NCBI GenBank assembly: GCA_016786495.1
Contig: JAEUUJ010000027.1
Location: 17,343 to 81,342 of the forward strand
Origin: Cyclobacteriaceae bacterium
Lineage (GTDB): Bacteria; Bacteroidota; Bacteroidia; Cytophagales; Cyclobacteriaceae
Direction: 5' to 3'
DNA: 64,000 bases
The position numbers and the translations under genes were made by a program. Below are positions 53,086 to 64,000 of this stretch, one piece after another (position 1 is the stretch's first letter; every line of letters begins with the position of its first letter). Below the pieces are notes generated by a model. That model did not search any database. It was not told the DNA's origin and was given only the letters and a program-made list of their open reading frames with translations.

Positions 53086-54090
53086 ATGTATATCATCAGC
53101 AGCTATTCTCTCGCGGTTTTCTTCTGCATCATTACGATGCTGTGCTGGGGATCGTGGGGAAACACGCAAAAACTTGCAGCCAAGACATGGCGGTATGAAT
53201 TGTTTTACTGGGACTACGTGATTGGCATTGTTCTGCTGTCTGTGGTGTTCGGATTCTCGCTGGGCAGTATGGGCGAACAGGGCAGAAGCTTCACAACCGA
53301 TCTCGCGCAGGTTAGCAGTGACAACCTGTGGAGCGCTATTCTCGGAGGCGTAATCTTTAACGCGTCAAATATCCTTTTGTCGGCTTCGATCTCTATTGCC
53401 GGAATGGCGGTTGCTTTCCCGGTAGGTGTCGGACTTGCGCTGGTACTTGGAGTCGTGCTCAATTATAACAGTGCCTCGAAAGATGACCCGATAATTTTAT
53501 TTTCCGGGGTAGCGCTGATTGTGGTTGCGATCATTCTGAACGGCATTGCGTCCGGAAAGATGTCAGCTGGCGGGAAAAAGTCGTCCTCAAAAGGTATCTG
53601 GCTTGCGGTTATTGCTGGTGTGCTGATGTCATTCTTCTACCGGTTCGTAGCGGCTGCGATGGACGTCAACAATTTCGAGTCGCCTACACCCGGTATGATG
53701 ACACCATACACTGCCTTCTTCGTGTTTGCGATGGGTATGCTGGTGAGCAACTTCCTGTTCAACACAGTGATTATGCGGAAGCCGTTCGTGGGTTCCCCGG
53801 TTACATACAAAGATTATTTCAGCGGAAGTTTTGGTACCCATCTCGTGGGTGTTGCCGGTGGATTGATCTGGGGACTTGGAACTGTGCTGAGCTACATGTC
53901 GGCCGGAAAAGCAGGTGCTGCCATTTCGTACGCACTCGGACAAGGCGCAACGATGGTTGCAGCGTTCTGGGGTGTGTTTATCTGGAAGGAATTCAGAGGT
54001 GCAGGTCCACGTGTAAACGTGCTGCTCTTCTTTATGTTTTTACTTTTTATCTCTGGGCTCGCACTGATTATCGTGTCGGGCGGCAATTAA
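53086..54090 (+). CDS. GRP/DMT-type sugar permease
   Basis: A 334-residue inner-membrane protein with about ten hydrophobic helices, the layout of the glucose/ribose uptake (GRP, RhaT-like) branch of the drug/metabolite transporter superfamily. Motifs are FCIITMLCWGSWGNTQK in helix 1, FPVGVGLALVLGVVLNY in helix 4, and the symmetric second-half YALGQGATMVAAFWGVFIWKEF. Coming after SusCD and ribose-releasing enzymes and with ribokinase in the same operon, it most likely imports ribose into the cytoplasm, comparable with the permease of Bacteroides ribose utilisation loci. Confidence 0.88.
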   Translation: MYIISSYSLAVFFCIITMLCWGSWGNTQKLAAKTWRYELFYWDYVIGIVLLSVVFGFSLGSMGEQGRSFTTDLAQVSSDNLWSAILGGVIFNASNILLSASISIAGMAVAFPVGVGLALVLGVVLNYNSASKDDPIILFSGVALIVVAIILNGIASGKMSAGGKKSSSKGIWLAVIAGVLMSFFYRFVAAAMDVNNFESPTPGMMTPYTAFFVFAMGMLVSNFLFNTVIMRKPFVGSPVTYKDYFSGSFGTHLVGVAGGLIWGLGTVLSYMSAGKAGAAISYALGQGATMVAAFWGVFIWKEFRGAGPRVNVLLFFMFLLFISGLALIIVSGGN

Positions 54091-54128
54091 ACAATTAAAC
54101 TAACTATTAACCTAAAACAATTTATGCT

Positions 54129-54923
54129 ATGAAAAAAAGTCTGATGTTTATGAGTGCAGCGGTGCTGGCGTTGAGCACCGTGTTGATCTCATCGTGTAGC
54201 GATGACGAAGGTGGTGGCGGATCGAAAGTTCCACCTGCAAAAATTAAGACCATTGCTTTCAATGATGGCTCGGCTATCGAAAGCTGGGAGTTTACGTATG
54301 ACGATCAGGATCGTGTGAGCAGCATCAGCAATGTTTACGATGGCGGCGACCCGTCAATCATTGCTTACACGTACGATGATGCTGCAAGTGAGCTGACCAT
54401 CCTGAAGGACGAAAACGAGACGATTTATGCGCTTGACGCTGAAGGCCGTGTAGTGAAAGAATACTGGAATGAAGACAAAACTGAATGGGAGGGTTATCAG
54501 TATGATGCGGATGGCCGGATGATCAAAGTGTTCGAGCACTACAGCGGTGCGGATCACCTGAAGTACGACCTTACTGTGGAAGATGGTAACCTGACTCACC
54601 GGATTCGGTACGAAGATGATGGCACTACCATTCGCGAAGATCGTGAGTTCACTTACACAATTGGAGACAATGCCAGCGGAATCCACCAGACGTATGCAGT
54701 AGATTCAGAATGGAAAAACATTGCCGGATTGTATGGAAAGCAAAGCAAGAAACTGGTAGAAGCGTATGTTCGTCACATTACTTCCGATCCGGGTACCAGC
54801 TTCGGTGCAACGTATACTTACACGTTCGATGATAAAGACCGCGTGGCAACGCAAACAAAGAACGGGACCAGCAGCGGTGGTAACTTCACCGAGTCGTGGG
54901 CATACACATATTACGAAGATTAA
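54129..54923 (+). CDS. lipoprotein with YD-like repeats
   Basis: A 264-residue lipoprotein (lipobox LISSCSDDEG, then a glycine-rich linker). The body is a run of beta repeats of the form YDxxGR/DxxDRV (EFTYDDQDRVSSISN, LDAEGRVVKEY, YDADGRMIKVF, YTFDDKDRVATQ). The same kind of module is found in the truncated gene at 1-612. It is the last gene before the operon terminator and may be a surface glycan-binding or scaffold protein, in the position that SusE/F-like genes often take. No catalytic motif is present. Confidence 0.75.
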   Translation: MKKSLMFMSAAVLALSTVLISSCSDDEGGGGSKVPPAKIKTIAFNDGSAIESWEFTYDDQDRVSSISNVYDGGDPSIIAYTYDDAASELTILKDENETIYALDAEGRVVKEYWNEDKTEWEGYQYDADGRMIKVFEHYSGADHLKYDLTVEDGNLTHRIRYEDDGTTIREDREFTYTIGDNASGIHQTYAVDSEWKNIAGLYGKQSKKLVEAYVRHITSDPGTSFGATYTYTFDDKDRVATQTKNGTSSGGNFTESWAYTYYED

Positions 54924-54943
54924 TTTTTTTGGTTAGAGTTCGG

Positions 54944-54976
54944 GGCCAGGAACGGTAATTCGTTTCTGGCCTTTTT
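54944..54976 (+). terminator. rho-independent terminator after the ribose-type PUL
   Basis: An 11-bp stem (54944-54954 with 54961-54971, GGCCAGGAACG/CGTTTCTGGCC, one G-T pair) with a six-base loop is followed by TTTTTC. It ends the operon that begins at rbsK and also lies ten bases from the stop of the convergent fucosidase gene. Confidence 0.92.
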
Positions 54977-54984
54977 CATTTCCG

Positions 54985-56301
54985 TCACTTCACTTCGAGC
55001 TCGACAATCGTATCAATCTCGTTCAGTTTGGCTTTCGGAATTTTTAACGTTACTCCGAATTCATTATCGGCAAACTTAACGGCACTCTTGTCGCCAAACA
55101 TCTTAGCGGATACTACTTTCTTTCCGAGGGAGGGGAGGATGAGGGTTTCATCCTGCCAGTTCAAAATGTGAACATAACAGGTGTTTCCTTTTTGCGTCAT
55201 TACGCCCCAGTCGCGGGCAGATAACGGACCACCTTTGGTGCCATAGATTGTTTCACCGTTCAGTTTTAACCATGCGCCCATTTGCTTCAGCAAGGCAACA
55301 TGTTCCGGTTGAATCTTGCCGTTCGGCATCGGCCCGACATTCAACAGGAAGTTGGCTCCGTAGCCGGCCGATTTTACGAGATACTGAATGAGCTCTTTTT
55401 CGGATTTGTTGCTGGCATCGCGCAGGTTAAATCCCCAGGAGTTGTTAATGGTTTCGCAGGTTTCTTTCGGTAACGCCCCGATTTTTTGTTCAGGCGCAAA
55501 ACCTGTGGTGTTATGGCCGGGCAGATCTTTTTCGAACATCTGGAAATCTTCACCCGCGTATGGCGCTTGGTGGTGATTACTTCCGATCAGTGCAGCCGGT
55601 TGTAATGCGTGAATCAATGCGTATGTTTTTTCTAACCGCCAGTCGGCATCTTTCTTATCCCACATGCCGTCAAACCAGATTCCTGCAATCAGGCCGTAGC
55701 CGGTGAGCAATTCTGTTAACTGCGCATCCATGTAGTCGAGGTATTTGTACCAGTCACCGTTTTCAGGCCGGCCTGTATAGCCATTGCCGGTGTTGCCGCG
55801 CGGAAAATAATCCGGGTGATGCCAGTCGAGCTGGGAATGATAAAAGAACAGTTTCATTCCCTGCGCATGACACTCATCGGCCAGCATATTGAGCACGTCT
55901 TTTTTGTACGGAGTGCGGTCAACAATATCGTAGTCGGATACTTTACTGTCGTACATCGCGAAACCGTCATGATGTTTGCTGGTGATCGTAATGTATTTCA
56001 TGCCGGCATCTTTTGCCATCTGCACCCATTCTTTCGGATTGAATTCAATCGGGTTAAAGAATGCAGGCAACTTCTCGTACGTCTTTACCGGGATTTGTTG
56101 GTTGTTCATAACCCACTCGCCGTCACCCAATTCACTATAAACTCCCCAGTGAATGAAAAGTCCGAAGCGGGCATCTTCAAACCATGCGCGTGTCTTTAAG
56201 TTCTCAGGCGTTGGCTGGTATTGGGTTTGGGCGTTGATCGTCAATAGACCGTTGAGTAAAAAGACGAACGCAATTGACCCTTTACGATAAAGATTCAACA
56301 T
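54985..56301 (-). CDS. GH29 family alpha-L-fucosidase
   Basis: A 438-residue exported enzyme (signal to INAQT) with the GH29 (beta/alpha)8 barrel: ARFGLFIHWGVYSELGDGEW, KYITITSKHHDGFAMYDSK and AGIWFDGMWD, where Asp211 is the expected nucleophile. The C-terminal beta-sandwich (about 340-438) is short. Family members release alpha-L-fucose with retention of configuration. It is monocistronic and faces the ribose-type locus. Its product is not obviously a substrate of that locus, so joint function is uncertain. Confidence 0.93.
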   Translation of the reverse strand: MLNLYRKGSIAFVFLLNGLLTINAQTQYQPTPENLKTRAWFEDARFGLFIHWGVYSELGDGEWVMNNQQIPVKTYEKLPAFFNPIEFNPKEWVQMAKDAGMKYITITSKHHDGFAMYDSKVSDYDIVDRTPYKKDVLNMLADECHAQGMKLFFYHSQLDWHHPDYFPRGNTGNGYTGRPENGDWYKYLDYMDAQLTELLTGYGLIAGIWFDGMWDKKDADWRLEKTYALIHALQPAALIGSNHHQAPYAGEDFQMFEKDLPGHNTTGFAPEQKIGALPKETCETINNSWGFNLRDASNKSEKELIQYLVKSAGYGANFLLNVGPMPNGKIQPEHVALLKQMGAWLKLNGETIYGTKGGPLSARDWGVMTQKGNTCYVHILNWQDETLILPSLGKKVVSAKMFGDKSAVKFADNEFGVTLKIPKAKLNEIDTIVELEVK

Positions 56302-56332
56302 AATGATTATGATTGAGTGATGTAGTCTACGG

Positions 56333-56923
56333 TTACTTGTGCCGCTTTTTCAACACGCCTTTCACATCGTCCAGCGACATGCCCTTTGCCTGCAGCAGCA
56401 CAAGATAGTGATAAAGTAAGTCAGCCGCTTCGTTCAGGAACAGATCGCGGTTATCGTCTTTCGCCTCAATCACCAGTTCTACGGCTTCTTCACCAACCTT
56501 TTGTGCGATTTTATTAATACCGGCTTCAAACAGTGACGTGGTGTACGATCCTTTTTTAGGACTTGCTTTCCGGTCTTTTATGATTGTCTCCAGCCGGTTT
56601 AAATCCCAGCCCTCGTTCTTTTCATTGAAGCATGTATCCGCGCCTGTGTGGCAGGTTGGTCCTTTCGGGATTACCTTTACCAGCAGGGAATCATTGTCGC
56701 AATCCTGGATGATTTCAACCAGTTCAAGCGAGTTGCCGGAGGTTTCGCCTTTCGTCCACAACCGCTTTTTACTGCGACTGTAAAACGTGACCTTCTTTTC
56801 ACGGACGGTTTTTTCGTACGCTTCTACATTCATGAAAGCGACCATGAGCACTTTCTGTGTAGCGGCATCCTGCACTACACAAGGAACCAAACCATTAAGT
56901 TTATCGAAATCAATCTTGGCCAT
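56333..56923 (-). CDS. hisI: bifunctional phosphoribosyl-AMP cyclohydrolase/phosphoribosyl-ATP pyrophosphatase
   Basis: The 196-residue HisIE fusion carries out histidine steps 2 and 3. Residues 1-105 are the cyclohydrolase (VLMVAFMNVEAYEKT, SRSKKRLWTKGETSGN, and zinc/magnesium site QDCDNDSLL...GPTCHTGADTCF). Residues about 110-196 are the pyrophosphatase (SYTTSLFEAGINKIAQKVGEEAVE and NEAADLLYHYLVLL). It is the last gene of the his operon, nine bases after hisF. Confidence 0.96.
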   Translation of the reverse strand: MAKIDFDKLNGLVPCVVQDAATQKVLMVAFMNVEAYEKTVREKKVTFYSRSKKRLWTKGETSGNSLELVEIIQDCDNDSLLVKVIPKGPTCHTGADTCFNEKNEGWDLNRLETIIKDRKASPKKGSYTTSLFEAGINKIAQKVGEEAVELVIEAKDDNRDLFLNEAADLLYHYLVLLQAKGMSLDDVKGVLKKRHK

Positions 56924-56932
56924 AATGTCGTA

Positions 56933-57691
56933 TCAAATCCGAACGGGAATAGTGTGTTGTGCCAGGTATTTTTTTAATTCAGGGATCCTGATCTCTCCAA
57001 AATGAAAGATGCTTGCCGCCAGCGCAGCGTCAGCCTTCCCGATGCTAAATACATCGAGAAAGTGCTTCACCGTTCCGGCTCCGCCTGAGGCAATCACGGG
57101 GATTGTTAATTGTTCATGAAGGGAAGCCAATGCGCTCGTGGCAAAACCATTTTTGGTTCCGTCATGATCCATGCTGGTAAACAAGATTTCACCGGCCCCG
57201 CGGTTTTCGCATTCCTGCGCCCAGGAAAATAGTTCTTTGTCGCTGGGTTGTTTTCCGCCATGCGTATGTACGATCCACTGTTCGTTCACATACCGGGCAT
57301 CTATTGCAGCAACAATGCACTGGGAGCCAAACGCCTTGGCGAGTTCATCCACCAGTGCGGGGTTTCGTACGGCTGCGGAGTTCACGCTTACTTTGTCTGC
57401 TCCGGCTTCCAGCAGGGGAGCGACATCGGCTGTAGAATTGATTCCGCCACCTACAGTGAACGGGATATTGATGTTGCGCGCGATTTCTTTTACGAGTGAC
57501 GCAAATGTTTTTCGCTTTTCGTTGGTCGCGGAGATGTCGAGGAATACGAGTTCATCGGCACCCTGTTGTGCGTACGTTGAGGCGAGTTCCACCGGATCGC
57601 CTGCATCACGAATGTTCACAAAGTTGATGCCCTTTACCGTGCGGCCATCTTTAATATCCAAACAGGGAATGATGCGCTTGCTCAGCATCAC
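56933..57691 (-). CDS. hisF: imidazole glycerol phosphate synthase subunit HisF
   Basis: A 252-residue TIM barrel, the cyclase half of IGP synthase, which uses ammonia from HisH to form imidazole glycerol phosphate and AICAR. Key acidic residues are seen in [16 protein letters not shown] (Asp near 11) and [12 protein letters not shown] (Asp near 130), with phosphate loops VGGGINS and ASGGAG. The start overlaps the stop of hisA by four bases, and its partner HisH is encoded one gene further upstream. Confidence 0.97.
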
Positions 57692-58410
57692 TTAAAAGTA
57701 AAAGGTTTGAGGTCGATCAGTTCGATCTTGTGTTCGTACAGCGCTTTACCGATGATTGCACCATAAACGCCCATGGCTTTCAGCTTACGAAGATCTTCCA
57801 GTGAACTGACGCCACCACTGGCTGTTATCTTGAGGGTAGGGAACCGCGTAAGAAGTTTTTCATACAATCCGAAGTTCGGGCCGTCCAGCATGCCGTCTGA
57901 TCCGATGTCGGTGCACGTCAGGTATTCCAGTCCGCTGCCCATATAATCTTCTACCAGTTCGAATAACCGGAGTTCGGTAGGTTCAAGCCAGCCGTTAATC
58001 ATGATGTGCTCTCCCTTTACGTCTGCACTGAGAATGAAATTCCGTGCACCATACTCATTCATCCAGCGCTTGAACTTCTCCGGTTCGTTGATCGCTACAC
58101 TTCCGATATTGATTTGATAGATGTCGAGGTTGATGAGTTGCTCGACATCCTCATCGGTTTTAACACCGCCTCCGAAGTCGATCTGAAGCGCAGTTTTCTC
58201 CTGCAGTTCGTAGATCACGTCCCAATTCACCACTTCACCCTCTTTCGCTCCATCCAGGTCAATCAGATGAAGGTATTCGAGGTCGGCATTCTGGAATTGC
58301 AGCGCTACGTCTAACGGATCTTCGCTGTAGATCTTTTTCTTCTTGAAATCGCCCTGCGTCAGCCGAACGCATTTACCGTCAATAATATCGATTGCTGGAA
58401 TAATCTTCAT
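57688..58410 (-). CDS. hisA: phosphoribosylformimino-5-aminoimidazole carboxamide ribotide isomerase
   Basis: A 240-residue TIM barrel with the catalytic N-terminal aspartate in [18 protein letters not shown] and the second in [14 protein letters not shown], plus phosphate-binding [11 protein letters not shown] and ASGGVSS. It opens the ribose ring of ProFAR in histidine step 4. Stops and starts overlap by four bases with both hisH before it and hisF after it. Confidence 0.97.
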
Positions 58411-58985
58411 ATCGCTAAAAAATTCTTCAAAATCATTTGTCCCGCTTCCGCGGATTTCTCGGGGTGAAACTGTACTGCATAAAAATTGTCTTTTCGCATC
58501 GCTGCACTAAACGGAACTGTGTACGGTGTAACGGCCGAAGTAAAATTGTTCACGGGTACGTAATAACTGTGTACATAATATACACTTTTGTTTTCAAGAT
58601 CCGGCTGAATCCAGTCATTGACTTTTGTCAGGGAATTCCAACCCATGTGCGGTACTTTAAAATCGGTTTCCGGGATAAACCGTTTTACGGGCTGATCGAA
58701 AATCCCCAGACAAGGGGTGTTATTTTCTTCCGAATGACGGCACATCAACTGCATTCCCAAACAAATTCCGAGTACAGGTTGTTTCAGATTTGTGATAACC
58801 TCGTCGAGTTTGCGGTCGCGCAGATACGCCATGGTGGTACTTGCTTCGCCCACTCCGGGAAAAATCACCTTATCCGCTTTCGTAATCGTCTCAGGGTCGT
58901 CAGAAATCGTAAAGTCAACGCCCAGCCGCTCCAGTGCGAACGACACCGACTGAATGTTTCCTGCGTTGTATTTGATTAGAACCAT
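58407..58985 (-). CDS. hisH: imidazole glycerol phosphate synthase glutaminase subunit HisH
   Basis: A 192-residue class I glutamine amidotransferase. The nucleophile elbow is LGICLGMQLM with the catalytic cysteine, and the His-Glu pair is in AVQFHPEKSAEAG. It supplies ammonia to HisF. It begins MVLIKYNAGNIQSV; the family's usual YGxGN is NAGN here. The 129-base gap before it, the only sizeable one in the operon, contains a triple 14-base repeat. Confidence 0.96.
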   Translation of the reverse strand: MVLIKYNAGNIQSVSFALERLGVDFTISDDPETITKADKVIFPGVGEASTTMAYLRDRKLDEVITNLKQPVLGICLGMQLMCRHSEENNTPCLGIFDQPVKRFIPETDFKVPHMGWNSLTKVNDWIQPDLENKSVYYVHSYYVPVNNFTSAVTPYTVPFSAAMRKDNFYAVQFHPEKSAEAGQMILKNFLAI

Positions 58986-58992
58986 GTTGAAC

Positions 58993-59034
58993 GACGAGTT
59001 ACGAATGACGAGTTACGAATAGCGAGTTACGAAT
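58993..59034. repeat. three tandem 14-base repeats inside the his operon
   Basis: GACGAGTTACGAAT occurs at 58993-59006 and 59007-59020, with a variant (AGCGAGTTACGAAT) at 59021-59034. The array lies between hisB and hisH, about ten bases before the hisH start codon. It could be recent slippage; it might also space the hisH ribosome site or an internal promoter. The rest of the gap (59035-59114) shows nothing clear. Confidence 0.7.
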
Positions 59035-59114
59035 TTTGATTTGTGATCGGTTTAAAACTTGTGATTGATTTAAAAATTTCCAGTAACGAATACTTCCAAC
59101 TTCAGCCTCCCCAC

Positions 59115-60230
59115 TCAAAGCGTGCCTTTCGTGCTCGGTAAATCATTTCCCTCTTTACGTACAGCCATTTTAATTGCTTTCGCAAAAGCTTTAAAAATTG
59201 CTTCAATCTTATGATGTTCGTTTGTTCCCCCGGCCTTGATATTCAGGTTACTTTTTGATGCATCGGAAAATGACTTGAAAAAATGGACGAACATTTCCGT
59301 TGGCATTTCGCCAATCTTCTCGCGCTTGAATTCTGCCTCCCACATCAGCCACGGACGGCCGCCAAAGTCGAGTGCTACTTGCGCCAGGCAATCATCCATG
59401 GGTAAACAAAAGCCATACCGCTCAATGCCGCGTTTGCTGCCCAGGGCCTTGCTGAAAGCCTCGCCAAGCGCAAGGGCAGTGTCTTCGATGGTATGGTGTT
59501 CATCGATGTGCAGATCACCCTTAACCTGGATGTCGAGATCGACCTTTCCGTGTTTGGCAAGCTGATCAAGCATGTGATCGAAAAAGCCCAGCCCGGTGGC
59601 AATGTTGCTCTTTCCGCTTCCGTCAAGGTTCACCGATATGGTAATGTCGGTTTCTTTTGTTTTACGGTTTACCACCGCACTTCTGGGAGATGCGATAAAT
59701 AAATTATAAATGTCCTGCCATGACGCGGTGCGCAACGCACAGAATTCCGCAAAGCCCGATGCTGTTAGTTTTTCATCCAGACTTGTATCTTTTAAAAGAA
59801 TCGCTTTGGAGCCGAGATTTTTAGCAAGTTCAACATCCGTAAGTCGGTCGCCAATAACGTATGAGTTCTTTAAATCGTAGTCAGACGAGAAGTACCTGGT
59901 TAGCATTCCGGTGCCCGGCTTGCGGGTCGGCTTGTTCTCGCGCTGGAACGATTTATCGATACAAACTTCTGAGAACGTAATGCCTTCATGTTTAAACGTC
60001 TTCATCATCCGCTCATGAGCGGGCCAGAAGTTCTTTTCCGGAAAGCTGTCGGTACCCAACCCGTCCTGGTTGGTAACCATTACCAGCTCGTAGTCAGTTT
60101 CGCGGGCAATTTTTCCGAGCCACGTAAACACACCAGGGTAGTATTCAAGTTTTTCGAGGCTGTCGATCTGTTCGTCCGGCGGTTCAATGATTAATGTGCC
60201 GTCACGATCAATAAACAATACTTTCTTCAT
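59115..60230 (-). CDS. hisB: bifunctional histidinol-phosphatase/imidazoleglycerol-phosphate dehydratase
   Basis: A 371-residue fusion. Residues 1-165 are the HAD-type histidinol-phosphatase ([13 protein letters not shown] with the nucleophilic aspartate, [26 protein letters not shown]). Residues about 178-371 are the dehydratase ([35 protein letters not shown] and [19 protein letters not shown], supplying manganese-binding histidines). The ATG at 60230 ([11 protein letters not shown]) is used; 25 codons upstream lie inside hisC. It overlaps hisC by four bases. The phosphatase's zinc-binding Cys/His loop known from E. coli is reduced to one cysteine ([11 protein letters not shown]). Confidence 0.95.
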
Positions 60231-61279
60231 AGCTTCTTCAACGCTTTCACCAGCCGCTGATTTTCTTCGGGTGTTCCAACGGTAATCCGCAGACATCCAT
60301 AACACAACGTGACCTTTGAACGGTCGCGTACAATAATTCCTTTTTCCATTAAATACTGATGTGTGAGAAACGCATCGCTCATGCGCACCAGCAGAAAGTT
60401 TGCGTCCGAAGGATAAACAGCTTCCACGGCAGGAAGTTTTACGAGGGCCTTCGCCAGCTTCTTGCGTTCCTTCACAATCTCTTTTACAGACGACTCCATG
60501 AACATCGTGCTTTCCAGCGCGTCAAGAACAAGTTCCTGTGTGCGGGTATTCACGTTGTACGGATACTTGATCTTGTTGAGCAAGGCGATAATTTCTTCGG
60601 AAGCGAAACACATCCCGAGCCGGAGGCCGGCAAGTCCCCATGCCTTTGAGAAGGTTTGCAATACAACGAGGTTAGGGTACTTGGCGAGTTCGTGGACAAA
60701 GCTCTTGCTCTTCGCGAAGTCGAGATACGCTTCGTCAATCACCACGAGGCCGTAAAAGCGTTTCAGAATTTCAACGATTTTATCGCGACTCAATAAATTC
60801 CCGGTAGGGTTATTCGGACTGCACAAGAAAAGGATCTTGGTTGTGGCATCGAATGTATTGGGGAACGTTTCGAGGTCAAGATCAAACTCAGGTGTAAGCA
60901 GCGCTTGCTGAACCTTAACGGCATTTACCTCTGCGCACACCGAATACATGCCGTACGTTGGCTCGGTAACCAGAATCGAATCCTGGTTGGGTTCGCAAAA
61001 CGCGCGGATTAACAGATCGATCGCTTCATCACTTCCGTTGCCCAGAAATATTTGGCCTGAACGAACATCTTTCAGCTCGGCAATTTTCTCTTTCAATCTC
61101 CGCTGCTGCGGATCGGGGTAGCGGTTATACGGAGACGGGTAGGGGTTTTCGTTTGCGTCCAGGTAAATCTCTGCTTCGCCTTTGAACTCATCGCGGGCCG
61201 AAGAATACGGCTTCATGTTCAGGATGTTTTTCCTCACCAGCGTGCTGATATCAATAAAAGATTTCGAACGTTTTGCCAT
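60227..61279 (-). CDS. hisC: histidinol-phosphate aminotransferase
   Basis: A 350-residue PLP enzyme of fold type I. The PLP lysine lies in [16 protein letters not shown]. Other landmarks are [45 protein letters not shown] and VIDEAYLDF. It converts imidazole acetol phosphate and glutamate to histidinol phosphate. It lies between hisD (18 bases upstream) and hisB (four-base overlap) in the operon. Confidence 0.97.
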
Positions 61280-61297
61280 GACGCAATAATTCCAGGG

Positions 61298-62581
61298 TTA
61301 GTTTAGGGTTGCCAGACGGACGGTGACGGCCTGCTTATGACCTGTAAGTTGTTCTGCCTCAGCCATTTTCTCAACCACAGGTCCCAACGATTTCAGTCCG
61401 TTTTCCGTTAGCTTCTGAAACGTAATATACCGGATAAAACTTTCCAGTGAAACGCCACCGGATGCTTTCGCATACCCGTTGGTGGGGAGCGTGTGATTGG
61501 TTCCGGACGCGTAATCGCCTACGGCCTCGGGTGAATAATTTCCGATAAAAACCGAACCTGCATTTACGATCTTGTCGCTTAAGCCATCTGCATCCTGCGT
61601 GTTGATGATTAGGTGCTCCGGAGCATATTCGTTAATAAAATCAACAGCTGTTTCAACCGAACTCATGCAAATGATCTTGCTGTTTTGCAATGCCTTCTCC
61701 GCGATGGTCTTCCGTGGCAACGTGGTGAGCTGTTTATCAATTTCGGCTGTGATGGCTGAGATGATTTGTTCGTTGTTCACCACCAGCATCACCTGACTGT
61801 CTTCACCATGTTCCGCTTGTGAGAGCAGGTCGGCTGCTACAAACGCAGGGTTTGCCGTTTCATCCGCCCAAACTAAAACTTCCGACGGGCCTGCGGGCAT
61901 ATCAATCGCAATGCCTTGCTGATTCACCAATTGTTTTGCTTTGGTAACGTATTGATTGCCGGGACCGAAAATCTTATAAACCTTTGGAATGCTCTCCGTT
62001 CCATACGCCATGGCAGCTATCGCCTGCGCTCCACCCACTTTGAAAATCTTGGTAATCCCGGTGAGTTGTGCTGCGTACAGAATCGCGGCATTGACTTTTC
62101 CGTCAGCATCGGGTGGTGTACATAAAACAACCTCCTTGCATCCCGCCAGCCTGGACGGAACACCCAACATCAAAACCGTAGAGAATAATGGTGCGGATCC
62201 GCCCGGAATGTAGACACCAACTTTTTGTATCGGAACTGCTTTTCTCCAGCACTTCACGCCCGGCATCGTTTCAACCGGCGACAAGGTTTGTTTCTGAGCC
62301 TCATGAAATTTTTCGATGTTTCGTGCAGCGGCAGCAATGGCATCCTTTAAATCCTGTGGAACCGCTTTGCTGGCTTCTCCTATTTCACTGGCCGATACCT
62401 GGAGTTGTTTTACATCCGCGCGGTCAAATTGCCGGGTAAATTCACGCAACGCATCATCGCCCGACCGTTGCACACGCGCGAGAATATTTTTCACCGAGTT
62501 TTCTAAAAACTCAAGTTCGACTTGAGGCCGGGCACATAGCTCAGCCCAGGTTTCAGGCGAAGGGTTGATAAACTGTTGCAT
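61298..62581 (-). CDS. hisD: histidinol dehydrogenase
   Basis: A 427-residue zinc enzyme that oxidises histidinol to histidine in two NAD-dependent steps. Signature regions are VGVYIPGGSAPLFSTVLM, KVGGAQAIAAMAYGTESIPKV, IDMPAGPSEVLVWADE, ADLLSQAEHGEDSQVMLV with the zinc/catalytic histidine, NEYAPEHLII, and GDYASGTNHTLPTNGYA. It starts two bases after hisG. Confidence 0.97.
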   Translation of the reverse strand: MQQFINPSPETWAELCARPQVELEFLENSVKNILARVQRSGDDALREFTRQFDRADVKQLQVSASEIGEASKAVPQDLKDAIAAAARNIEKFHEAQKQTLSPVETMPGVKCWRKAVPIQKVGVYIPGGSAPLFSTVLMLGVPSRLAGCKEVVLCTPPDADGKVNAAILYAAQLTGITKIFKVGGAQAIAAMAYGTESIPKVYKIFGPGNQYVTKAKQLVNQQGIAIDMPAGPSEVLVWADETANPAFVAADLLSQAEHGEDSQVMLVVNNEQIISAITAEIDKQLTTLPRKTIAEKALQNSKIICMSSVETAVDFINEYAPEHLIINTQDADGLSDKIVNAGSVFIGNYSPEAVGDYASGTNHTLPTNGYAKASGGVSLESFIRYITFQKLTENGLKSLGPVVEKMAEAEQLTGHKQAVTVRLATLN

Positions 62582-62583
62582 GG

Positions 62584-63444
62584 TTATAAAATCATTTTTT
62601 CAATTGGAATAACGAGAATGCCCTGTGCGCCAAACGACTTCAACTGATCGATCTTTTCCCAAAAATCGTTTTCGTCTACCACAGAATGCAGCGAACTCCA
62701 GCCTGGTTTGCCTAACGGGATAATGGTCGGACTCTTCATACCCGGAATGATGCTGGTGATTTTTTCGATGGCTTCATTCGGGCAGTTCATCAAAATGTAT
62801 TTGTTGTTCTTCGCTTTCTGCACGGCTTCGATGCGGAACAGCAGTTTATCAAGGATTTGTTGCTTGGCGGCTTCAAGGTTCGCACTGCCAATGATCACCG
62901 CCTCCGAGTTCATTACCACCTCAACTTCTTTCAGCCCGTTGCTTAACAAAGTACTGCCGGTACTCACAACATCGCAGATCGCGTCTGCAAGCCCGATGCC
63001 GGGAGCAATTTCAACCGAGCCACTGATCTCGTGTAATCCCGCGGTCAGGTTGTTCTTTTTCAGAAATGCCGTTACAATGTTGGGGTAGGAGGTAGCGATG
63101 TTTTTTCCGTTGAACCAGGAAAGTCCGGTATAGGTTTCTGAACGGGGTATGGCCATGGATAAACGGCAGCGAGCGAAGTCGAGACGTTTAACAATCGTAT
63201 TCTGTTTTTGTTTTTCCGTGAACACGTTTTCGCCCACAATGCCAATGTCGGCTACCTTATCTTCCACGTATTGCGGAATGTCGTCATCACGCAGAAAAAG
63301 AATCTCGACCGGAAAATTCCGGGCCTGTGTTTTGAGTTGGTCTTTGCCGTTGCTGAAGAGAAGGCCGCTTTCCTGGAGTAGGCTCAGCGAGCCTTCCTGC
63401 AGGCGTCCGCTTTTCTGAATGGCAATTCGAAGGAGTGTATTCAT
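62584..63444 (-). CDS. hisG: ATP phosphoribosyltransferase, long form
   Basis: A 286-residue first enzyme of histidine synthesis, joining ATP and PRPP. It begins LLRIAIQKSGRLQEGSL and has the PRPP-binding EIAPGIGLADAICDVVSTGSTLLSNGL. Its C-terminal ACT-like regulatory domain (about 215-286) identifies the long form that binds histidine for feedback inhibition and needs no HisZ. It is the first structural gene behind the attenuator at 63465-63598, so enzyme amount is controlled by charged tRNA-His and activity by histidine itself. Confidence 0.96.
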   Translation of the reverse strand: MNTLLRIAIQKSGRLQEGSLSLLQESGLLFSNGKDQLKTQARNFPVEILFLRDDDIPQYVEDKVADIGIVGENVFTEKQKQNTIVKRLDFARCRLSMAIPRSETYTGLSWFNGKNIATSYPNIVTAFLKKNNLTAGLHEISGSVEIAPGIGLADAICDVVSTGSTLLSNGLKEVEVVMNSEAVIIGSANLEAAKQQILDKLLFRIEAVQKAKNNKYILMNCPNEAIEKITSIIPGMKSPTIIPLGKPGWSSLHSVVDENDFWEKIDQLKSFGAQGILVIPIEKMIL

Positions 63445-63464
63445 ATGTGTTTGTGAATCGTGAT

Positions 63465-63502
63465 AAAAACAAAAAAGGCCTGCCGGATCGCGGCAAGCCT
63501 TT
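63465..63502 (-). terminator. his operon attenuator terminator
   Basis: A 12-bp hairpin (63491-63502 pairing with 63474-63485, one G-U pair, five-base loop) is followed on the minus strand by TTT, G and TTTTT. It stands between the leader peptide and hisG. Its upstream arm can alternatively pair with GGCAGG at 63536-63541, which would dissolve the terminator. Confidence 0.9.
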
Positions 63503-63523
63503 CTTCAAAGTCTTATGGTTTAG

Positions 63524-63598
63524 TTAAAACATAAACCTGCCACGCATCGTGTGAAGTACATGATGGTGGTGCAGATGGATGTTTGTTGTTGTTCTCAT
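63524..63598 (-). CDS. hisL: his operon leader peptide
   Basis: A 24-codon reading frame with ATG at 63596-63598 and TAA at 63524-63526. It encodes MRTTTN followed by IHLHHHHVLH and TMRGRFMF, so six of nine consecutive residues (8-16) are histidine. Such a peptide has no other purpose than to make a ribosome pause when histidyl-tRNA is scarce. The histidine codons overlap the first arm (63566-63574) of an RNA hairpin whose second arm (63536-63543) also pairs with the terminator, the geometry needed for attenuation. It is too short for usual gene finding. Confidence 0.9.
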   Translation of the reverse strand: MRTTTNIHLHHHHVLHTMRGRFMF

Positions 63599-63607
63599 TT
63601 GATGGCT

Positions 63608-63638
63608 CAAAGAAAAGCAACAATTTTAATTTAACAAA
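63608..63638 (-). promoter_or_regulatory. putative promoter of the his operon
   Basis: On the minus strand TTTG (63635-63638) lies 19 bases from TTTCTTTG (63608-63615), close to the Bacteroidota TTTG-N19-TAnnTTTG promoter. The expected start point is only a few bases before the leader-peptide ATG at 63598. Confidence 0.55.
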
Positions 63639-63660
63639 ACTGTTTCGGGATAAACGTTGT

Positions 63661-63668
63661 TAATTTTG
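63661..63668 (+). promoter_or_regulatory. putative -7 element of the TPR lipoprotein gene
   Basis: TAATTTTG matches TAnnTTTG and lies 20 bases before the ATG of the last gene, divergent from the his promoter. The -33 element is not clear. Confidence 0.4.
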
Positions 63669-63688
63669 AGGCCTAACGACTGTTAATC

Positions 63689-64000
63689 ATGATTTTTAGA
63701 GGGATACTGGTAGTATTATGTTTCGCGATAGCTGGCTGCGACAGCGCAGGCACGAAAAAACACCGGTTCCTGCTAAAAGGAAATGCCGAGTTGGCCGACC
63801 GGCATGAGGATGCTGCCATCCGGTATTTTAATGAGGCACTGAAAATAGATTCGTGCTTTGCTGATGCCCATAACAACCTCGGAACGCTGTATTTCCGTCA
63901 GAAAGATTACGGTCAGGCTATTCAGTATTATAGTCAGGCACTCGGCTGCGACCCGACCTACCTGCCGGCTTATTTTAACCGGGCAAATACGTTCTATGAA
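63689..64000 (+). CDS. TPR lipoprotein, N-terminal part
   Basis: The gene starts at the ATG at 63689 and runs off the window; 104 residues are visible. A lipoprotein signal (LVVLCFAIAGCDSAG) is followed by tetratricopeptide repeats: HEDAAIRYFNEALKIDSCFADAHNNLGTLYFR and KDYGQAIQYYSQALGCDPTYLPAYFNRANTFYE follow the 34-residue consensus. It is probably a surface or periplasmic scaffold protein. Full length and further domains cannot be judged. Confidence 0.85.
   Translation, partial: MIFRGILVVLCFAIAGCDSAGTKKHRFLLKGNAELADRHEDAAIRYFNEALKIDSCFADAHNNLGTLYFRQKDYGQAIQYYSQALGCDPTYLPAYFNRANTFYE

Follow-up and report, generated by a model that had tools for sequence, protein, structure and literature searches.

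A candidate translation-coupled histidine attenuator before the his operon of a Cyclobacteriaceae bacterium, and relatives that keep the His leader without a clear terminator

Upstream of the histidine operon in a member of the Cyclobacteriaceae lies an element that we read, with a probability of about nine in ten, as a classical ribosome-mediated transcription attenuator responding to His-tRNA; it is found on the minus strand of the window, as we call the whole 64,000-nucleotide stretch of DNA that was analysed. Sequence and covariation together point to a leader peptide, its His codons, a terminator, an antiterminator and the spacing between them. It is well supported, as far as sequence goes, that the attenuator would work like hisL, having, the protector hairpin aside, the testable features of a leader-peptide attenuator, and that it is not a member of the Rfam family RF00514. 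The mechanism is of a textbook type and is little described in the phylum Bacteroidota. The more surprising point is not this ordinary-looking attenuator but a set of relatives in which a His leader is present without a clear terminator, a lineage that lets one ask how an attenuator changes its output device.

Read from the window sequence, the order on the minus strand is a Bacteroidota-type promoter, the His leader, the terminator and hisG. Promoters of this type carry TTG at -33, and a TTG within GTTTTG was read directly at 63635..63637. After a spacing of 19 nt it is followed by TTTCTTTG at 63608..63615, also read directly, which agrees in five of six positions with the -7 box consensus TAnnTTTG (PMC9723704; here and below, articles are cited from partial texts), and 9 nt separate this box from the leader ATG. 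As the consensus box spans -12 to -5 (PMC9723704), the predicted 5' UTR is 5 nt long, with transcription starting at 63603, so that the leader would have a nearly leaderless start, judging by promoter position alone. Leaderless transcripts amount to 5.5% in F. psychrophilum (PMC9723704) and 5' UTRs of under 10 nt to about 3.7% in B. thetaiotaomicron (PMC7366714); very short UTRs are thus rare in published transcriptomes, and one of 5 nt would be unusual if confirmed. Near-leaderless leader peptides would be material for studying the coupling of transcription and translation. Canestrari et al. 2020 reportedly describe leaderless polycysteine frames in mycobacteria.

The 24-codon frame with six His codons that the original prediction had placed before hisG is confirmed at 63598-63524 (-), by direct reading and by conservation; it encodes MRTTTNIHLHHHHVLHTMRGRFMF, with His at codons 8, 10, 11, 12, 13 and 16. 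Codons 9-11 hold arm 1, the putative protector (CUGCACCAC, 63566..63574, -), while arm 2, the 5' arm of the antiterminator (CGUGGCAGGUUU, 63533..63544, -), lies in the last leader codons and is assigned from pairing, covariation and duplex energy. Arm 3 (AGGCUUGCCGCG, 63489..63500, -), common to antiterminator and terminator, is assigned from pairing and covariation; these and a terminator scan define arm 4, the 3' arm of the terminator (63474..63485, -). Sequence and the same scan give the U-tract at 63471..63476 (-), the first U's of which can also pair in arm 4. The first structural gene is hisG with its C-terminal domain (62584..63444, -; TIGR00070 and TIGR03455), and NCBIfam models give the order hisG-D-C-NB-H-A-F-IE, the remainder of the operon (hisD, hisC, bifunctional hisNB, hisH, hisA, hisF and hisIE) occupying 56333..62581 (-). 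We observed that hisC and the listed hisNB frame (window 59115-61279, -) overlap at 60227-60305 if the listed GTG start is used; because the hisNB model match begins at residue 26, hisNB probably starts later than at the listed GTG. On the other side, a divergent TPR-repeat gene (63689-64000, +), cut by the window end, has its intergenic region in common with the his promoter.

Among the 1238 short ATG frames of the window, four (two of them nested) have at least five His or HHHH, and HHHH occurs in the His leader only. It could be argued that such a frame is due to chance and that the hairpin behind it separates hisG from the divergent TPR gene as an ordinary insulator or constitutive terminator, and terminator-like hairpins are indeed common in the window (22 in 10 kb against 12.5 expected). 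With a constitutive terminator, however, the operon would be silent; covariation links arms 2 and 3, as detailed below; and a leader as defined by our rule (ATG, 6–45 codons, at least three His) was found in 129 of 136 hisG upstream regions, which are partly non-independent as the family and named-contig surveys have species in common, but in only 171 of 1360 dinucleotide shuffles. Under a stricter rule (HHH, or at least five His), the figures were 111 of 136 and 14 of 1360. We consider this reading exceedingly improbable.

The family survey found hisG in 57 of 60 same-family genomes, all 57 upstream regions of which were read, and the named-contig survey kept 80 loci of 111. The ATG rule identified a leader at 54 of the 57 and 76 of the 80 loci, respectively, the script reported a terminator at 18 and 75, and both features coincided at 18 and 72. 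Of the three family-survey misses, L010 and L055 have no leader and L053 has one with a GTG start; the misses among named contigs are L096, where the contig ends, L107, L117 and L122. The same script recovers hisL of E. coli K-12 together with its terminator. The closest named-contig relative, Cyclobacteriaceae bacterium isolate SSF30 (L058), has a HisG that is 100% identical over 286 residues and a leader that differs from that of the window by one base. Relatives without the frame, or with the DNA kept minus its His codons, would have spoken against the original prediction; the surveys gave the opposite picture, His frames being conserved across them. By eye, the near relative L107 keeps the terminator behind a leader-like frame with only two His, possibly a decayed sensor.

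The strong terminator that had been proposed before hisG was recovered at 63502-63471 (-), and its 15 stem pairs, 7 being GC, are the largest number at any of the 22 terminator-like sites in 54000-64000. Covariation was assessed in 52 Cyclobacteriaceae loci from L058-L116, aligned from the leader start to the U-tract with the window's own species as the first row; these are the 57 loci with both leader and terminator, minus five near-identical ones. Terminator pairs were formed in 96.6% of cells, compared with 26–64% in slid versions, and nine of 12 pairs showed changes on both sides, in 36 cells against a shuffled mean of 12.3. For the antiterminator, 80.2% of cells were paired, compared with 36–51% in slid versions, and 20 cells had both-side changes against a shuffled mean of 7.7, a number that none of 500 shuffles attained; a version slid by +3 had 27 such cells. 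Both-side changes affected six of its 12 pairs, and 48 of the 500 shuffles had as many; of the other four measures, one was matched by 21 shuffles and the remaining three by no shuffle. In an alignment-free comparison of the duplex between arm 3 and the leader tail with shuffled tails, the mean z was -3.0, and 82 of 89 loci, among which species recur between the two surveys, fell below -1. Thus, the competing 2:3 and 3:4 pairings of the original prediction both covary, with arm 3 common to the two. Arms 1, 2 (GUGGCAGG, 63543-63536) and 3 (CUUGCC, 63497-63492) lie where they had been placed, and the 2:3 pairing is longer than claimed, joining CGUGGCAGGUUU at 63544-63533 to AGGCUUGCCGCG at 63500-63489 by 12 pairs including G-U. 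At Flavobacteriaceae loci (e.g., L123, L125, L128, L132), the arm pair consists of CUCAAGCG and CGUUUGAG, and the His run is kept.

The hairpin of arms 1 and 2 fared less well. Its pairing is possible in the naked fold of the window, as had been claimed, but covariation in the 52 loci shows no excess, 60.7% of cells being paired against a shuffled mean of 61.6%; only a CCAC:GUGG core recurs, and this core sits in the His codons.

As a classical attenuator, the element would operate as follows. Transcription would start some 5 nt upstream of the leader AUG, and the leader frame would be translated by a ribosome trailing RNA polymerase. With charged His-tRNA in short supply, the ribosome would stall on His codons 10–13, its leading edge short of arm 2, and arm 2 (RGRF codons near the leader end) would pair with arm 3 once the latter was made; with this pairing no terminator would form, and hisG-D-C-NB-H-A-F-IE would be transcribed. 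If His-tRNA were plentiful, the ribosome would reach the stop codon and cover arm 2, arms 3 and 4 would pair, and transcription would end at about 63471. In the weakest step of the scheme, which concerns RNA that is not translated, arm 1 may hold arm 2 and termination would prevail. The start site, the stalling and the response to histidine are thus predicted features of the element.

For these predictions, the RNA was folded only as far as arm 3, with the ribosome assumed to mask 30 nt. For the window, the probability of the antiterminator was 1.0 with codons 10–13 in the A site, 0.28 for naked RNA and 0.0 with the ribosome at the stop codon; with the ribosome at the sixth His (codon 16), arm 2 is covered and the probability was also 0.0. 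In the stalled, naked and stop-codon states, pairing of arm 3 with RNA upstream of it averaged 0.88, 0.57 and 0.42 for 57 near loci, 0.77, 0.38 and 0.41 for 18 family-survey loci, and 0.90, 0.53 and 0.27 for 15 other loci. The expected direction was seen at all 57 near loci (L058-L116, which include the window's own species), at 15 of 18 (L001-L057) and at 15 of 15 (L117-L137), the predicted switch being absent or reversed in L008, L050 and L057; this direction is partly built in by geometry, since arm 2 falls under the mask when the ribosome is at the stop codon. It is this geometry that recurs: of 89 loci, 84 have the start of arm 2 within the leader frame; it follows the His run at a median distance of 16 nt (14–17 nt at 51 of 89), and at 58 of 89 it lies 19–25 nt before the frame end.

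A thermodynamic switch on the full-length leader was rejected, as the terminator prevails on average in every state. At equilibrium, the full-length RNA of the 57 loci had a mean terminator probability of 0.95 naked, 0.93 stalled and 0.95 at stop, hence hardly any switching; values below 0.5 in any state were confined to three loci (L063, L076, L113), in L063 in the wrong states, and the antiterminator was higher stalled than at stop at 20 of 57. The switch must consequently be kinetic, with the antiterminator formed before arm 4 is made. The claim that stalling frees arm 2 agrees with the folding predictions for RNA up to arm 3, at all near loci; an opening of the terminator is hardly predicted for the full-length RNA at equilibrium.

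The antiterminator and terminator pair taken by itself would equally suit a tRNA- or metabolite-sensing RNA, such as a T-box or a riboswitch, or an RNA-binding protein that chooses between the two in place of a translating ribosome, translation of the leader being a prediction. Such a sensor appears very unlikely to us. A scan with Rfam 15 found nothing at gathering score in the whole window or in 20 relatives, so that these models miss the window attenuator, and the 18 matches listed for 63400-63720 at E up to 10 include no T-box. At about 130 nt, the leader RNA is short; apart from the arms, conservation is highest in the start codon and the His codons, with a few leader-tail and stop positions; moreover, in the leader before trpE of the same genome, a Trp run takes the place of the His run. 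The 18 weak Rfam matches, the best of which was Thr_leader with 22.8 bits against 55, were taken as chance.

Its compact operon raises the alternative that the attenuator is an enteric one acquired together with an enteric-type hisGDC[NB]HAF[IE]. Gene order and bifunctional hisNB are as in enterics, and a survey of his genes in the superphylum suggests that hisNB might have come from gamma-proteobacteria by transfer (PMC8305728), which would favour such an origin. RF00514 (His_leader), however, scores E. coli at 131.6 bits, a positive control, and has no match in the window at gathering score, nor is it listed for 63400-63720 with the E limit relaxed to 10; the leader frame of the window contains arm 2, whereas in E. 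coli the His run stops two codons before the stop; and His leaders are present at nearly all Bacteroidia loci of the phylum survey described below. An enteric origin is thus highly improbable. The attenuator resembles hisL of E. coli and Salmonella (RF00514) in having a leader with a His run and an intrinsic terminator before hisG, and differs in the antiterminator 5' arm inside the leader ORF and in the predicted near-leaderless start. A plasmid search with the leader DNA gave no match.

Lopatovskaya et al. 2010, reportedly a comparative paper on attenuation, could cover Bacteroidetes. Otherwise, no title or abstract in the literature searched combined a Bacteroidota his leader peptide with its arms, and the nearest was a transcriptome study of Flavobacterium psychrophilum (PMC9723704). 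That study, in the text available, reports strong clues that amino-acid operons are preceded by leader-peptide attenuators, as well as a structured hisG 5' element in F. psychrophilum and other Flavobacteriaceae, with no Rfam hits. The element concerns the same gene and phylum as the window attenuator, for which leader, arms and covariation are given here; the available part of the study describes none of these for the F. psychrophilum element. The remark that such attenuation is far less documented in Bacteroidota therefore fits the literature searched, with the qualification that attenuation clues had already been given (PMC9723704). The authors of an earlier article were aware of leader-peptide systems in no phyla other than Proteobacteria and Actinobacteria, to which they added hisS/hisZ in bacilli (PMC2965389). 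His attenuators of Firmicutes have been reported in the Bacillus cereus group, Peptostreptococcaceae and Erysipelotrichales (PMC9413887); like that of the window, they have a His leader, a terminator and an antiterminator and fall outside RF00514, and they differ in belonging to another phylum and in having three to five consecutive His codons in their leaders.

The promoter was followed across relatives by requiring at least five of six positions of TAnnTTTG, 3–17 nt before the leader ATG, with TTG 17–23 nt upstream. This arrangement is present at 32 of the 57 near loci (shuffled rate 0.043) and, in the family survey, at 8 of 17 terminator-type (0.049) and 22 of 36 terminator-less loci (0.045). 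A perfect box occurs at one of 57, 4 of 17 and 25 of 36 loci in these groups (shuffled 0.019, 0.021 and 0.010); the box of the window's own group is thus imperfect.

Attenuation in this genome appears to extend to tryptophan. Its trpE (L206) is preceded by a leader with a WWW run, MIRVSNIAWWWHISETDM, and a terminator of -24.2 kcal/mol, with an arm pair GUGAACAGC:GCUGUUCAC noted by eye; the arrangement of run, terminator and arm pair is of the same kind as in the his leader, from which it differs in its Trp codons and its position before trpE. No clear leader was found in the stretches upstream of ilvD, homoserine dehydrogenase and prephenate dehydratase of the same genome, which lie within or next to upstream genes.

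A survey of the phylum found hisG in 138 of 158 genomes, and 68 new loci were read. By a strict rule applied without a shuffle baseline (HHH, or at least four His at a density of 0.2; ATG, GTG or TTG starts), a His leader is present at 32 of 33 Bacteroidia loci and 12 of 35 loci of other classes, and 24 and 8 of these leaders, respectively, are accompanied by a terminator of -9 kcal/mol or better. The Bacteroidia count suggests an old origin and a general occurrence, within Bacteroidota, of translation-coupled attenuation at amino-acid operons. One of the 12 leaders of other classes, L196, looks like chance.

The His leader is found without a clear terminator at 37 of the 57 family loci (36 by script, plus L053), namely upstream of hisG in L012, L014-L026, L028-L032, L034-L039, L041-L048, L051, L053, L054 and L056. 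A looser terminator finder detected weak sites, of -3.6 to -9.0 kcal/mol, in five of the 36 (L014, L019, L023, L036, L048). At these loci the His codons lie close to the end of the frame, the median distance from the last His to the peptide end being two residues, compared with eight in terminator-type loci. At 34 of 37 loci the stop codon lies inside the best hairpin formed near the last His, and in two more this hairpin comes within 2 nt before the stop; 28 distinct arm pairs are used (e.g., UUCCUCC-UAA-GGAGGAA, AUCUCUC-UUGA-GAGAGAU, AUUGCU-AAUA-AGCAAU), and five of the stop-region hairpins are weak, above -2.5 kcal/mol (L025, L032, L038, L039, L043). A stop-enclosing hairpin of -4 kcal/mol or better is present at 29 of 36 terminator-less loci against 12.2% of shuffles, and the same test gave one of 18 terminator-type loci against 11.7%. 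From the stop hairpin to hisG, the sequence is G-poor and pyrimidine-rich (C 0.222, G 0.129, T 0.363), compared with C 0.166 and G 0.188 before the leader. These composition figures and the last-His distances are based on 39 loci, including L119-L121 and L136; L119 and L120 (terminator-less by script, with a terminator by eye) and L136 (uncertain hisG start) are all outside the stop-hairpin tests.

Two changes between the architecture states are required on a quick 78-row HisG tree, with states set by hand for L119 and L120 (terminator), L053 (terminator-less) and L136 (none). One change falls at a fork of 39 Cyclobacteriaceae rows, 37 terminator-less and two without leader (SH-aLRT 84), and the other at L121, on a contig labelled Pyrinomonadaceae. 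This family is assigned to the Acidobacteriota, but the hisG of L121 resembles those of Bacteroidota, and a hairpin marks the end of its His leader; the cause would be either mis-binning or transfer.

At trpE, a leader with at least two Trp and a terminator (looser script) is present in all 16 terminator-less genomes read, the trp terminator falling after the chosen ATG in L218 and L221; the lack of a terminator thus concerns his and not attenuation in general. For comparison, six of nine terminator-type genomes had no trpE frame by the filter and were not counted. Elsewhere in the phylum, the families coded f3 (5 of 5 loci) and f21 (3 of 3) have strict leaders and no terminator. Without a shuffle baseline, stop-enclosing hairpins were counted at three of five f3 and three of three f21 loci; the other two f3 hairpins end 3 and 6 nt before the stop, and those of f21 are weak (-2.6 to -4.2 kcal/mol).

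That the terminator-less leaders act by sequestering the hisG start found no support, accessibility of the start being 0.567 naked, 0.561 stalled and 0.560 at stop. By analogy with tna and with mycobacterial cys leaders, these leaders may instead act through Rho-dependent attenuation, the one line of evidence being base composition. The mycobacterial cys leaders carry Cys codons close to the stop, together with suggested sites for Rho, and are likened by their authors to E. coli tna (PMC1262725). In the available account of them (PMC1262725), they share with the terminator-less his leaders the regulatory codons at the leader end, the absence of an intrinsic terminator and the pyrimidine-rich tract that follows; the his leaders differ in responding, presumably, to histidine and in the frequent stop-enclosing hairpin. 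In such a Rho-type device, a ribosome stalled on the last His codons would keep the hairpin open and shield a Rho loading site, which a finishing ribosome would expose. We tentatively suggest, with somewhat more doubt than confidence, that one and the same His leader serves two exchangeable his attenuators in Bacteroidota, the classical one of the window and a Rho-type one with stop hairpin and pyrimidine stretch in the sister Cyclobacteriaceae clade, and perhaps in f3 and f21. By eye, at L019, L028, L037, L048, L053 and L054, a ACATATCGCCC-like stretch near the leader start recurs after the stop hairpin.
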